A DNA stretch of 32,034 bases from Patescibacteria group bacterium (GTDB taxonomy: Bacteria; Patescibacteriota; UBA1384; UBA12157; JAENIV01): NCBI GenBank assembly GCA_023485405.1, contig JAMCZU010000010.1, positions 1 to 32,034 of the forward strand, written 5' to 3'. The first letter of the stretch is position 1. Each line of letters opens with the position of its first letter. The position numbers and the translations under genes are program-made. The notes beneath the pieces are model-generated. The model was not told the DNA's origin and searched no databases. It saw nothing but the letters and a program-made list of their open reading frames with translations. Positions 22,071 through 30,161 of the stretch are shown piece by piece.

Positions 22071-22095
22071 AGAATATTTGAATAGAATATTTGAA
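22071..22095 (+). repeat. Two 12-bp direct repeats in the operon leader
   Basis: AGAATATTTGAA occurs at 22071-22082 and at 22084-22095, one base apart. The spacing is a little more than one helical turn and the copies sit just past the start site, so a repressor operator is possible. Confidence 0.55.
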
Positions 22096-22133: not shown

Positions 22134-22346
22134 ATGTTTATCTTAGCGATGGTAGATTGGCTGAAATGGACAATTGGAGCAGTGATTTTTACTCTCTTTG
22201 TCTTGTTAGTGTGGTTATTCTTTAATTCACCCGAACCAAGCGAAACATCAAGCTCGGACTCGTACTCGCCACCAGAAGACAGTGACGATGATCGTTGTAA
22301 TAATGAGAACTGCTGTAACCGTAATCAAGGACCATACTATGGTTAG
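22134..22346 (+). CDS. Small membrane-anchored peptide with Cys/Asn-rich tail (candidate RiPP precursor)
   Basis: A 70-residue product with a strong GAAGGAGG Shine-Dalgarno. Residues 12-30 form one hydrophobic helix (WTIGAVIFTLFVLLVWLFF). A Ser/Pro/acidic linker follows (about 31-53, ending DSDDD), then a tail RCNNENCCNRNQGPYYG with Cys at 55, 60 and 61. The last 8 bases overlap the start of the radical SAM/SPASM gene, so the two are translationally coupled. Leader-like part, acidic linker, Cys-bearing end and a coupled SPASM enzyme together suggest a modified peptide. The membrane helix is unusual for a precursor. It could instead be a plain small membrane protein. Confidence 0.6.
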   Translation: MFILAMVDWLKWTIGAVIFTLFVLLVWLFFNSPEPSETSSSDSYSPPEDSDDDRCNNENCCNRNQGPYYG

Positions 22347-23649
22347 ATCATTACGCCAAATCTTGCCATTTCTCATCACAGAGCGCTATCTGCGGAAAGT
22401 TTTGTCCACTCCGCTATCAGAGCAAGATTATAACAGATTGGCAAGAAGAGCATCACTTGATTTAGTCGGTCTAATGTTGGCCGAAAAGCACCTTCCTGAT
22501 AAAACAAAAAAGATAATCCAAGAACGCTTACGCACCCACTCTTATAACCAAAAAAATCGCAGATTAAAGCGACCAAAACATTCATCCCTATTACGAATGT
22601 TAGACATTGAACTGACAGAAAGATGCAATTTGGCTTGCCATCATTGCTATATTCGTCAACCACTTCATGACAGTGTAAGTTCATCAACTGAGATGTCAAC
22701 AGATTTTCTGTCTCAACTTCTCGATGAAGGGATAACTTTGGGACTCAAGGCGGTACGTTTTACTGGCGGCGAGCCTTTGATCAGACCAGATTTTATAGAC
22801 ATCTACCAAGCAGCGGCAGATAGAAAACTTGAGATTTTAATCTCGACTAATGCTACTTGTATAGACGAAACAATCGCTGCTACATTCGCTACTTATAAGC
22901 CTTGCGCAACCAGTATCTCTTTATATGGTTGGGACGAGAAGTCTTATTATCGCACCACCGGTCAAAAGGATGCTTTTTTCAAGCTGATTAACGGAATTTC
23001 ATTACTTAGAAAAAACAAAATTCCTTTTGACTTAAAATATCCGCCGGTACGTTTGTTAATGGATAACCGTTCACGTTTAGATAAACTTGCAAAAGAGCTC
23101 GGCAATAAGAGTTCGTTACCATACGTTTGGGAATTGATTTTACGGGCTCATCGCGAAGAGAATCTGAATAAACAGATCCGAAGCCAACGACTGACGGTTC
23201 AAGAAGCTGCCCGAGAAAGAACACGAATAAAAGGATTGGTCGCAAAGGAATACGGAGCTCTTTGTTCAGCATCTGGCAAACATTTTTCTGATAAGTTGAT
23301 GAGTTGTCGCGGTGGCAAAGATAGACTAACAGTTGATGCCTCCGGCCATCTTCAGTTGTGCTTAGAGTTGAGACATCCAGAGACTATCTATGACTTGCGA
23401 AACGGTTCTTTGCATGATGCTTTGCAGAATTTCATCCCGCCATTACTCGAAAGAGTGATCCAAAACAGGGAAATTTATGATCGTTGTGGACATTGCCGGC
23501 TTTATCGACGTTGCCTGATGTGCCCGGCAGTTAGTTGGACAGAGTTCGGTACTTTGGAAGGAATTTCTGAATATCACTGTCGGGTGACACATTGCCAAGC
23601 TTGGTTAATTGGTTTTCTGGAAGAAAACCAATATGGCTGGCAAAACTAG
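22339..23649 (+). CDS. Radical SAM/SPASM peptide-maturase-like protein
   Basis: A 436-residue radical SAM enzyme. The ATG at 22339 is chosen because AAGGA lies seven bases upstream; the longer frame lies inside the peptide gene. A helical N-terminal extension of about 85 residues precedes the [4Fe-4S] motif CNLACHHC (Cys 96, 100, 103), then FTGGEPL. The SPASM domain is complete: Cys323 in SCRGGKDRLTVDASG, Cys341, then CGHCRLYRRCLMC (383, 386, 392, 395) and Cys414, with another Cys at 419. This arrangement holds two auxiliary clusters in peptide-modifying enzymes such as those making sactipeptides, ranthipeptides and PQQ. No protease or transporter is nearby. The substrate is inferred to be the 70-residue peptide. 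Confidence 0.85.
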   Translation: MVRSLRQILPFLITERYLRKVLSTPLSEQDYNRLARRASLDLVGLMLAEKHLPDKTKKIIQERLRTHSYNQKNRRLKRPKHSSLLRMLDIELTERCNLACHHCYIRQPLHDSVSSSTEMSTDFLSQLLDEGITLGLKAVRFTGGEPLIRPDFIDIYQAAADRKLEILISTNATCIDETIAATFATYKPCATSISLYGWDEKSYYRTTGQKDAFFKLINGISLLRKNKIPFDLKYPPVRLLMDNRSRLDKLAKELGNKSSLPYVWELILRAHREENLNKQIRSQRLTVQEAARERTRIKGLVAKEYGALCSASGKHFSDKLMSCRGGKDRLTVDASGHLQLCLELRHPETIYDLRNGSLHDALQNFIPPLLERVIQNREIYDRCGHCRLYRRCLMCPAVSWTEFGTLEGISEYHCRVTHCQAWLIGFLEENQYGWQN

Positions 23650-23664
23650 CAAATTATGACAAAT

Positions 23665-23695
23665 AACCTGTGTTTAAAACCACAGGTTTTATTTA
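23665..23695 (+). terminator. Intrinsic terminator of the radical SAM operon
   Basis: An 8-bp perfect stem (AACCTGTG at 23665-23672, CACAGGTT at 23681-23688) has an 8-nt loop and is followed by a T-rich TTATTTAT. Confidence 0.7.
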
Positions 23696-23726: not shown

Positions 23727-23758
23727 AAACCATAAAATCAAACTTCGTAGGTTTGATT
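23727..23758. repeat. Left hairpin end of the RAYT element
   Basis: Reads AAACCATAAAATC, then AAACTTCGTAG and GTTTGATT. The inner arms (AATCAAAC and GTTTGATT) fold on a short TTCGTAG loop containing GTAG, the tetranucleotide often linked to REP elements. Its right arm supplies TTGATT at 23753-23758, the likely -35 box of the transposase gene. Confidence 0.8.
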
Positions 23759-23780
23759 TATAAGTAAATTAAACTATAAT
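23753..23780 (+). promoter_or_regulatory. Leaderless promoter of the RAYT gene, -35 inside the hairpin end
   Basis: TTGATT (23753-23758), a 16-bp spacer, TATAAT (23775-23780). Only 6 bases separate the -10 box from the ATG, so the transcript should start at the start codon. Transposase bound to the hairpin would block its own promoter. Confidence 0.6.
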
Positions 23781-23786
23781 AAAAAT

Positions 23787-24452
23787 ATGAGGAAAGATCC
23801 ATTAGTAAATGGACAATATTATCATATATTGAATCGGAGTATTGCAAAGTACGAAATTTTTAATTTTCCTAATGATTTTTTGCGCTTTATTAATATTCTT
23901 GACTTATATCGTTTTATTGATTTCCGGTATAGTTATTCGATTTTTTCTCGACTATCTCTCTTGCAACAACAAATAATAATAAGCGGTCTTAGAAAAAATC
24001 CCAATATTGACGTCCAAATAATCGCTTATTGTGTTATGCCAACCCATTTTCATCTTATATTAAAACAATTAGTTGATGGTGGTATTAGTACCTACATCTC
24101 AAGAGTTCTTAATAGCTACTCTAAATCTTTCAATCTTATACATAAACGCAAAGGACCTCTGTGGGAAGGACGATTTAAGAATATTTTAATCACAACTGAC
24201 GAACAATTGCTTCACTTAAGCCGATACCTACATTTAAATCCGACATCTGCTGGTCTAGTAAAGAAACCGGAAGAATGGCAATTTTCTTCATATCAAGAGT
24301 TTATCGGCAAACAAAAACAAGGAATTTGTGATTTTAGAGATGTCATCGACATCAACCCTGGAAATTATAAAAAATTCGTTTTAGAGAGAGCGTCATATCA
24401 AAAAAAGCTATCTAAAATAAAAAAAATTCTTTTAGAAAACCATACCGACTAA
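23787..24452 (+). CDS. REP-associated tyrosine transposase (Y1/HUH family)
   Basis: A 221-residue HUH-type single-strand transposase of the RAYT branch. The N-terminus shows the usual GQYYHILNRSIAKYEIF. The metal-binding HUH motif is CVMPTHFHLILKQ. The candidate nucleophile Tyr is in YISRVLNSYSKSFN, followed by GPLWEGRFKNILI and LSRYLHLNPTSAGLVKKPEEWQFSSYQEF, typical of RAYTs. All catalytic motifs are intact, so it may be active. Such enzymes are usually single-copy domesticated proteins that disperse REP hairpins. Here inverted hairpins flank it, and one more related hairpin occurs at 28695-28718. Confidence 0.92.
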   Translation: MRKDPLVNGQYYHILNRSIAKYEIFNFPNDFLRFINILDLYRFIDFRYSYSIFSRLSLLQQQIIISGLRKNPNIDVQIIAYCVMPTHFHLILKQLVDGGISTYISRVLNSYSKSFNLIHKRKGPLWEGRFKNILITTDEQLLHLSRYLHLNPTSAGLVKKPEEWQFSSYQEFIGKQKQGICDFRDVIDINPGNYKKFVLERASYQKKLSKIKKILLENHTD

Positions 24453-24455
24453 CAC

Positions 24456-24487
24456 AATCAAACCTACGAGGTTTGATTTTATGGTTT
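24456..24487. repeat. Right hairpin end of the RAYT element
   Basis: Inverted copy of the left end with a single mismatch. The arms AATCAAACC and GGTTTGATT enclose the loop TACGA, and TTTATGG follows. It begins 4 bases after the transposase stop and could also terminate transcription. Confidence 0.8.
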
Positions 24488-27652: not shown

Positions 27653-28621
27653 TTAATCTGTTGCGTAGGCAGACTCCTGTTCAGCCGCCGCGGCGGCCGC
27701 GGCCGCGGCCGCCGCTGCTCTTTCGGCATCAGCGATTTTCTTGATCTTTCGTTCCTCGGCTTCACGGAACATTTCCCTGGTCTCGGTCGGCGTTGGTATT
27801 TCAACATCAATCGGTTGAAGATTCCACTGCCGTCCCCTTTTGACCAGAAACGCGGTGTAAAGCCAAGGTTTTCCCGGCTGATAGAAGACAACGGCCAGTT
27901 CTTCGCGGTCGGAAGATTTTGCCAAATCCATGGCCAGATCTTTGAGCGCGCGTTTGCGACTGGTCTCGCCTTCGTAAGGCATCATCACTGCCGGATAGAT
28001 GAAAGGTGAATTCGGATTAATCGTCTCAGTGACGAAAATTTCCGAAGAAACCGTTTCTCCTTCAAGAAAACGATCCATTTCATCTACCAGATGACGATGC
28101 GCCGCATCACGGGTGTTGGCCAATTGAGAAACCTCGATTGGCCGCGACTGGATCATCCGACTGGTCGTTCTCTCTGGCGCCAAATCGGCCACCTGACCAA
28201 AGAGAGCTTTGGCATCTTGCTTGATTTTGGTGTTGCCTTCCAAAACACTACTACCAAGCCCAATGATACCGCCGCCGAATCCCGGACAGCCAGATGACAA
28301 CATAATGGCTCCTTGAAGCATCGCTTGCTTGGAACCATTGCCCATAATCCGACTCAAAGTCGCCGGATCATCAATAGCCATTGTCCGAACTGTCGCTCGA
28401 AAATCGAGGGCGTCCAAAGCCGAAAGCTGATGCGGCTCGGCTTGAATACCGAGCTTTTCGTACTCGTTGGCCATGGCAATCGCCCGCCCTGGCTCGGGAT
28501 CAACCACATGAACCATAGAAAAACGTTCGAGCATCTCCGGTTTTTCCTTAACCGCTTCGAAGTTTGCTCGAGTGCCACGATTAGCACCATAGTGGGCATA
28601 GATTACATCCGCATTAGACAT
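27653..28621 (-). CDS. Rossmann-like protein with C-terminal polyalanine tract (unknown function)
   Basis: A 322-residue soluble protein that I do not recognise. The N-terminal half looks like a nucleotide-binding alpha/beta fold: VIYAHYGANRGTRANFEAV, then VHVVDPEPGRAIAMANEYEK, then TMAIDDPATLSRIM, and a Gly-rich stretch GCPGFGGGIIGLGSSV. The order recalls ThiF/E1-like or other Rossmann proteins, but catalytic residues are not clear. The second half has EELAVVFYQPGKPWLYTAFL. A charged helix (REAEERKIKKIADAER) then runs into 12 alanines at 302-313. AAGGAGG precedes the ATG, which overlaps the upstream membrane-protein gene by 8 bases. The two are one operon. Confidence 0.55.
   Translation of the reverse strand: MSNADVIYAHYGANRGTRANFEAVKEKPEMLERFSMVHVVDPEPGRAIAMANEYEKLGIQAEPHQLSALDALDFRATVRTMAIDDPATLSRIMGNGSKQAMLQGAIMLSSGCPGFGGGIIGLGSSVLEGNTKIKQDAKALFGQVADLAPERTTSRMIQSRPIEVSQLANTRDAAHRHLVDEMDRFLEGETVSSEIFVTETINPNSPFIYPAVMMPYEGETSRKRALKDLAMDLAKSSDREELAVVFYQPGKPWLYTAFLVKRGRQWNLQPIDVEIPTPTETREMFREAEERKIKKIADAERAAAAAAAAAAAAEQESAYATD
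27690..27715. repeat. 26-bp all-GC perfect palindrome encoding polyalanine
   Basis: A perfect 26-bp palindrome built from GCC, GCG and GGC units sits within a run of about 32 G/C bases in an AT-rich genome. It encodes most of the 12-alanine tract. It could fold into a very stable mRNA hairpin near the end of the operon, and tandem GCN codons are prone to expansion. Confidence 0.8.
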
Positions 28622-30122
28622 TTTTGTTTCCTCCTTGTTTTACTGCAGATAAATCATGACTTTTATTTGCTTTGCCGTCACCTCCCGCCGAGCCATCAAA
28701 CCCCGGAGGTTTGATTTTCAACCAGCTCAAAGTAGCTAATTCCCGACCACAAGATTCAATAGTTGTTCCCAATTCACTTAAAACCTGCGTTCTAATGCCA
28801 GTAAAAATACCCTCCATTTCGATGTTATTTTTGTCCAGCTTATCATCAATCATCTCATAGATATCATTGATCGTGGTCTGTAACTGACTACGGTATGTTT
28901 CCAGCATCTCGCGGTAGCGACGACTGGCCTGCTCAAAAGTGTTACGAACTTCAGCCAAAACACGGTTAATCAAATTTTGTGTCTGCTGAAAAATATCTCT
29001 TTTACGACTCAAAGTTTTGAAACGCCTGTTTACCTTTCGGTAATCGCGATTGATTTCTTGAGTTTTGTGGAAACAAATCCCTGCCACCGCCGCCATAATC
29101 GGAATGGCCAGAACATTAACAGAAACCAAAGCGGTATTAGTAATCGCGACACTAAGATTACTAGAAAACGCTTCCTTAATATCCGGCATTCTTAAAGCGC
29201 CAATAAACAAAGAGCCAAAAATTAATAGTGGCACTGCCCACCAATGCTTATTTAATACCAGGTGAGCCAAAAAAATAGCCGTGATAGTCATTGTCATTGC
29301 CAAAAGTGGAATTAGCCCCGGAATATCCATGGAAGTACCTTCGTAACGCGGATAAACCGAAAGATAAACAATTGGCAGATCAAGCAAAGCCGCCAGCAAG
29401 CCACATACGAAATACCAAGTCAGTTTACATCTAAGACCATTTAGCTCGGTTTTAGTTTGATTGCAACCAACATCTACTGTCGCTTGTTGAGCAAATGCTT
29501 CCTGATTAATAACCGGTGCTGGCGGTGTCTGCAAAGGAGACGGTTGGGATATTTTTTCCAAAGCTCGAAACATCCTCGGCCGGACTTCTTTGTTTAAGTG
29601 AGCAGATGATCTTACGATACTATCCAAATCACTAACTGCCGCACTAAACCGAAAACGGGCCAGCTGCAACTTGCTTTGGCCCTTATCAACTGCCTGCTTG
29701 ACAATGTTAAAGACATATTCTGTAGCACGAGACTGCAAAGCTTCTGGCAGACGTCTAATGCGAAAATCATCACTAATGTTCTCCCTAATCTGCGCATCGC
29801 TAGGCAAAATCGTCACCACCTGATCGCTGTCTTGATGAGGAAGACGAGCGGTGCTCAAAAACCGATCGAGTGTCGCTTGAACATGTGATCTTGTTAGGTC
29901 AGTATACTCACGGACACGACTCGTCCTTTGAGCAATGGCTTCTTCTCTTTCGCGCTGCCGCTTTTCTCGCTCACGCGCACGACGTTCGTCATCTAAACGA
30001 CGCTTGCGTTCAGCAGAAGTTTCTGTTGGTTTTGCTTTTTCAGATCTTTTCACCCCCCAAAGTTTTTCGTAAGTTAAATCGCCGAACCATTTTTTTGGAC
30101 TAAGATTTTCTCCGAGTCTCAT
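28614..30122 (-). CDS. Four-helix membrane protein with flanking coiled coils (unknown function)
   Basis: A 502-residue protein that I do not recognise. The ATG at 30122 has GGAGGG seven bases upstream; the longer TTG frame is rejected. Order of parts: an N-terminal region with a highly charged coiled coil (about 37-65, ERKRRLDDERRAREREKRQR), a helical domain (about 75-190), a Pro-rich linker, four membrane spans at about 235-255, 270-290, 294-311 and 329-351, and a long helical C-terminal region (about 355-470) rich in Arg, Glu and Gln. The C-terminal tail contains KIKPPGFDG, encoded by a REP-like hairpin. It is the first gene of an operon with the Rossmann-like gene. Base composition is more GC-rich than the mur genes. 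Confidence 0.55.
   Translation of the reverse strand: MRLGENLSPKKWFGDLTYEKLWGVKRSEKAKPTETSAERKRRLDDERRAREREKRQREREEAIAQRTSRVREYTDLTRSHVQATLDRFLSTARLPHQDSDQVVTILPSDAQIRENISDDFRIRRLPEALQSRATEYVFNIVKQAVDKGQSKLQLARFRFSAAVSDLDSIVRSSAHLNKEVRPRMFRALEKISQPSPLQTPPAPVINQEAFAQQATVDVGCNQTKTELNGLRCKLTWYFVCGLLAALLDLPIVYLSVYPRYEGTSMDIPGLIPLLAMTMTITAIFLAHLVLNKHWWAVPLLIFGSLFIGALRMPDIKEAFSSNLSVAITNTALVSVNVLAIPIMAAVAGICFHKTQEINRDYRKVNRRFKTLSRKRDIFQQTQNLINRVLAEVRNTFEQASRRYREMLETYRSQLQTTINDIYEMIDDKLDKNNIEMEGIFTGIRTQVLSELGTTIESCGRELATLSWLKIKPPGFDGSAGGDGKANKSHDLSAVKQGGNKNV
28695..28718. repeat. REP-like hairpin within a coding sequence, related to the RAYT ends
   Basis: The arms ATCAAACC (28695-28702) and GGTTTGAT (28708-28715) are identical to those of the right end of the RAYT element; the loop is CCGGA in place of TACGA, and the TTT that follows matches as well. 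In all 21 of 24 bases agree. It lies in the last 40 codons of the membrane-protein gene, 4 kb from the transposase. Confidence 0.7.
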
Positions 30123-30161
30123 TGAAGTACCCTCCAAATACAGATCAATTTTCAAGGTTCA

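Follow-up and report, generated by a model that had tools for sequence, protein, structure and literature searches.

A radical SAM/SPASM enzyme and a membrane-helix peptide encoded by overlapping genes in a patescibacterial genome: a putative peptide-modification pair

In the genome of a Patescibacteria group bacterium, the gene of a radical SAM/SPASM enzyme is directly preceded by a short, overlapping gene that encodes a peptide with a membrane helix. The pair has the character of an accessory unit and, judged from its sequence, looks like a small and rare peptide-modification system. The pairing, the type of enzyme and its fold together make it somewhat probable that the two genes constitute an accessory module in which the membrane-anchored peptide has its tail modified by the partner enzyme, and we infer that the system is of the RiPP type. 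If the tail is indeed modified, this would be a minimal, self-anchored SPASM system of two genes, without protease, exporter or recognition domain. It would operate in bacteria very poor in biosynthetic genes, and could reveal the way in which epibionts decorate membrane or surface. The visible cysteines of the peptide, which the preliminary description took as part of the likely substrate, are a misleading clue.

The overlapping genes and their signals

The features of the pair are collected in Table 1; the window is the whole stretch of 32,034 nucleotides that was analysed. The peptide comprises a membrane helix (about residues 12-30), an acidic linker (31-53) and a tail (54-70, RCNNENCCNRNQGPYYG; also given as CNNENCCNRNQGPYYG). 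Helix and linker, which had been pointed out before, are borne out by the ORF sequence, the best 18-residue hydropathy window reaching 2.62, and the residue numbers of Cys 55, 60 and 61 and Tyr 68-69 are correct. None of 5000 dinucleotide shuffles of the window DNA yielded an ORF of at least 60 aa with a comparable helix that ends at the enzyme start. A search with the peptide alone returned weak hydrophobic matches and nothing further.

Table 1. Features of the gene pair and of the adjoining element in the window
Feature	Position	Strand	Basis or remark
AGAATATTTGAA-T-AGAATATTTGAA, a tandem direct repeat 5' of the peptide gene	22071..22095	+	12-base units
Putative substrate peptide gene, 70 aa	22134..22346	+	Sequence, shuffle test, G001 counterpart
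AAGGA ribosome site and CATACTATGG	22325..22343	+	CATACTATGG identical in G001
Radical SAM/SPASM enzyme gene, 436 aa	22339..23649	+	Pfam, SPASM cysteines, AlphaFold and Foldseek
Terminator-like hairpin common to both genes	23665..23688	+	
IS200-like (Y1) transposase element, adjoining the pair and not part of it	23727..24487	+	Gene 23787-24452

The overlap of 8 bases reported earlier is confirmed: the peptide ORF and the enzyme ORF, which begins with the ATG at 22339, have ATGGTTAG in common. Each gene has its own ribosome site, a strong GGAGG in front of the peptide and AAGGA in front of the enzyme, and the stretch CATACTATGG codes both for PYYG, with which the peptide ends, and for the start of the enzyme. 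One promoter and one terminator had been proposed to serve both genes. The terminator hairpin is present. For the promoter there is no confirmation: a scan of the + strand upstream of 22134 let no sigma-70-like site pass. As for the tandem repeat, the window holds exact copies of AGAATATTTGAA only at these two places, and at up to one mismatch 7 matches are found vs 1.03 expected. Placed where a regulator might bind, it is a possible candidate for a regulator site. Rfam gave no match.

A second pair in another genome

Among the about 780 genomes of the phylum that were searched in overlapping samples, only one other, G001, contains an ortholog of the enzyme; apart from it, these samples include no relative from the same family. 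Other classes of the phylum yielded no further ortholog. The two enzymes share about 40% identity over the aligned part, with the core, the C-terminus and all SPASM cysteines conserved. In G001, the enzyme ATG likewise overlaps by 8 bases the ORF of a membrane peptide, here of 54 aa (MVLAAVIIVMGLLAFVIGAIWKGNQISGEEEKTTKKVDTSADDVYGRGRNSYYG), which places a short peptide gene with such an overlap beside the enzyme in both orthologs. Shuffled G001 upstream DNA gives this layout at a rate of 0.0006. The G001 locus also has an AGGAG ribosome site, and a promoter-like site (TTGATT-17-TATAAT) lies directly upstream of the peptide gene. The G001 enzyme frame contains one TGA and one frameshift; since the essential infB gene on the same contig (C69; L027:7560-8209, minus strand) is also frameshifted, sequence errors are likelier than decay.

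Of the radical SAM loci elsewhere in the phylum, about 30 were compared and none has a comparable peptide layout; the short hydrophobic ORF with a TTG start and a 4-base overlap at the radical SAM locus L054 is unlike the window peptide. The recurrence in G001, the low shuffle rates and the absence from these other loci therefore indicate that the pair is real and specific. Several other matches were rejected. The SPASM enzyme encoded by G150 is a different one and lacks a peptide of this type, and bacterial and archaeal contigs gave a single archaeal radical SAM match that is unrelated. Among viral contigs, a phage family matched at 31-45% identity over 80 residues only, and the best-ranked matches in plasmids and phages, mostly at 22-28% identity, included no ortholog. 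In the literature, covered partially in full text, no description of such a pair was found.

Both peptides have a membrane helix followed by a charged linker, and both end in (P/S)-Tyr-Tyr-Gly; outside the helix and the last residues they do not align. The preliminary description expected a peptide with a helix and a Cys tail in front of homologues of the enzyme. The helix peptide is found in G001 and the Cys tail is not, and the cysteines as the substrate are thus not borne out. Because the G001 peptide lacks cysteine, the conserved function is not one of thioether chemistry; the core cysteines expected of ranthipeptides and sactipeptides are not conserved. The 6 bases directly 5' of the enzyme ATG are the same in the window and in G001, an identity with a chance of about 3e-4 at that spot. 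The stretch in question adjoins the ribosome site of the enzyme gene and doubles as its spacer and start. With two sequences, selection for the peptide is inseparable from selection for translation, and the conserved YYG end, which overlaps the start codon, may in part be explained by the gene overlap, i.e., by a constraint on the DNA.

This pattern of conservation bears on the main rival to the substrate reading, according to which the peptide would serve as a small adaptor that brings the enzyme to the membrane, its target there being a lipid, a small molecule or some other protein. Such a role is conceivable, if rather unlikely. It would agree with the conservation of the helix and the charged linker instead of tail residues and with the AlphaFold model, in which the enzyme itself shows no obvious membrane segment; moreover, physical partners are often encoded by overlapping genes. 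However, the best structural and profile matches of the enzyme are modifiers of peptides or proteins, and an adaptor gives no account of the YYG end of both peptides, except if this end reflects a DNA constraint.

The enzyme and its closest known relatives

The Pfam model Radical_SAM (PF04055) matches the enzyme at 1.2e-19, above its cut-off. As previously claimed, the SAM cluster motif is complete (C96-x3-C100-x2-C103) and so is the set of SPASM cysteines, C323, C341, C383, C386, C392, C395 and C414, in the arrangement C323-x12-G336-x4-C341, C383-x2-C386-x5-C392-x2-C395, C414. The last spacing of the quartet, CX2C, is atypical, the usual form being CX3C, and the Pfam SPASM match in the G001 enzyme reaches only 0.0021, below the cut-off. 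The AlphaFold model used here was built from 24 rows and has a mean pLDDT of 76.6, with values >90 in much of the core; an earlier model from 3 rows (pLDDT 44) was left out. Foldseek places anSME, SuiB, SkfB, PqqE and EpeE, all of which modify peptides or proteins, among the nearest solved folds. The nearest sequences in the PDB are those of PqqE and, with a two-row profile, SkfB as well. Matches to viperin in PADLOC cover the common radical SAM core only, and this identity was rejected.

The enzyme passes none of the curated NCBIfam models listed. Its top scores are for AhbD (6e-24) and NirJ2 (1e-22), which would be compatible with an enzyme whose product is a cofactor or tetrapyrrole-like compound, the peptide being an unrelated small protein that is merely co-transcribed. 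These scores are nevertheless not diagnostic because the same models head the list for unrelated SPASM enzymes from this phylum, and they lie far below the curated cut-off (85 vs 500 bits). No tetrapyrrole genes were recognised among the window genes read or scanned, and the pairing of peptide and enzyme recurs, all of which renders a small-molecule product improbable.

The enzyme most resembles the SPASM RiPP maturases PqqE, SkfB, SuiB and EpeE, which have the same radical SAM core and SPASM cysteines and a small peptide gene directly upstream. In contrast to these systems, the window shows no evident recognition domain and neither protease nor exporter, the candidate precursor carries a membrane helix in the position of the leader, and the enzyme stays below all curated family cut-offs. 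The N-terminal 80 residues, which form four helices of low confidence in the model and are missing in the G001 ortholog, do not resemble a winged-helix fold; no RRE is evident in the model and Pfam PqqD does not match the enzyme. Some SPASM RiPP enzymes need no leader recognition domain. The closest solved fold is that of the anaerobic sulfatase maturase anSME (Foldseek 1e-10), which also acts on a peptide segment. Yet the identity to it is 16%, and the sulfatase motif Cys/Ser-x-Pro/Ala-x-Arg is found in neither the window nor the G001 peptide.

In the mycofactocin (MftA/MftC) and PQQ (PqqA/PqqE) systems, a short peptide with a Tyr near its C-terminus is encoded adjacent to a SPASM enzyme, a likeness that extends to the way of working only. 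MftA and PqqA have no membrane helix, unlike the window peptide; furthermore, a partner of the MftB or PqqD type was not seen and the enzyme passes neither the MftC nor the PqqE model. A precedent for RiPPs in the CPR radiation is provided by the CPR graspetides (PMC8939145), which differ in relying on ATP-grasp chemistry, with enzymes unrelated to the one in the window.

Proposed mechanism, genomic setting and other loci

In the substrate reading, the short peptide would be translated first and its N-terminal helix would insert into or dock at the membrane, while translation would continue across the 8-base overlap to yield the SPASM enzyme. The enzyme would then modify the hydrophilic tail on the cytosolic side by means of a SAM-derived radical and the auxiliary SPASM clusters, most likely near the C-terminal Tyr-Tyr-Gly and not at the non-conserved cysteines. 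The modified peptide might perhaps act at the cell surface of the epibiont. That the peptide is the substrate, and with it the site, the chemistry and the role of the product, is what we infer from the arguments above. That the tail is exposed at the surface is a guess. The positive-inside rule predicts opposite orientations for the two peptides: outward for the tail in the window, where Lys 11 precedes the helix, and inward for that in G001, where Lys 22 follows it. A cytosolic enzyme could act only on an inward tail or before export. Also to be weighed against the substrate reading, as far as sequences and model tell, are the limitation to two members, the lack of the N-terminal 80 enzyme residues in G001 and the absence of an evident RRE and of a C39 peptidase/exporter. 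The more specific proposal that the helix takes the place of a leader, and that in this ultra-small bacterium the SPASM enzyme converts the Tyr-Tyr-Gly of a membrane-anchored peptide into a redox-active or cross-linked group, is unlikely.

The pair had been said to split a dcw cluster, and comparison with G002 and G003 confirms that it breaks the dcw gene order, between mraY on one side and pgeF/murD on the other. In G002, about 380 bp separate mraY from pgeF and murD; G003 has another ORF in this interval, which in the window is occupied by the pair and the separate IS200-like element. The ends of the latter are 32-nt inverted, partly palindromic, hairpin-forming sequences with 97% complementarity, and the element follows directly after the terminator of the pair. 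The G001 pair sits elsewhere, beside obg and a gene whose product carries an LPKTG sorting signal. In the window, the GC content of the enzyme gene exceeds that of the measured neighbours (42 vs 31-39%), and in G001 it is 51% vs 40-43% for infB and obg.

This accessory distribution, together with the inserted position, the higher GC in both genomes and the shortness of a membrane peptide, would also fit a bacteriocin-like, membrane-active peptide that the enzyme activates and the epibiont uses against its host or competitors. As noted earlier, however, there is no exporter or protease nearby: a C39-type export peptidase was not found in the genome of the window, no protease adjoins the pair, and no immunity gene lies next to it. 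As the tail of the window peptide is in addition acidic and not cationic, a bacteriocin is very improbable.

Elsewhere in the window, two overlapping genes of unassigned family (27653-30155) encode proteins of 513 and 322 aa. The former contains several hydrophobic stretches and gives a weak ZorA/MotA-like match (1.2e-4); the latter, its partner, has a tail rich in alanine.

Some other SPASM loci of the phylum are of interest in their own right. At L007:740-970 (minus strand) and at L046, which belong to two genomes of one genus (G059 and G182), a SPASM enzyme has a strongly Cys-rich small ORF alongside, e.g., CKPHCGPGCWPPRC...CWPPLCYPNCNPSCRPEC. The top score of the L007 enzyme is for the grasp-with-spasm maturase model, below the cut-off. 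From their sequences, these ORFs are better candidates for a Cys-based RiPP than the window pair. Short Cys-rich ORFs also lie 3' of SPASM genes at L047 and L063 (LDCNPNCGPLGNCNPDCDPHD; SCDGPICDCGDDCYDCIDCDE). Finally, the genome of the window encodes a second SPASM enzyme of 462 aa (L002:1204-2592, plus strand), followed by a methyltransferase-like gene; its extra N-terminal region of about 100 residues appears PqqD-like by eye, with no Pfam match.
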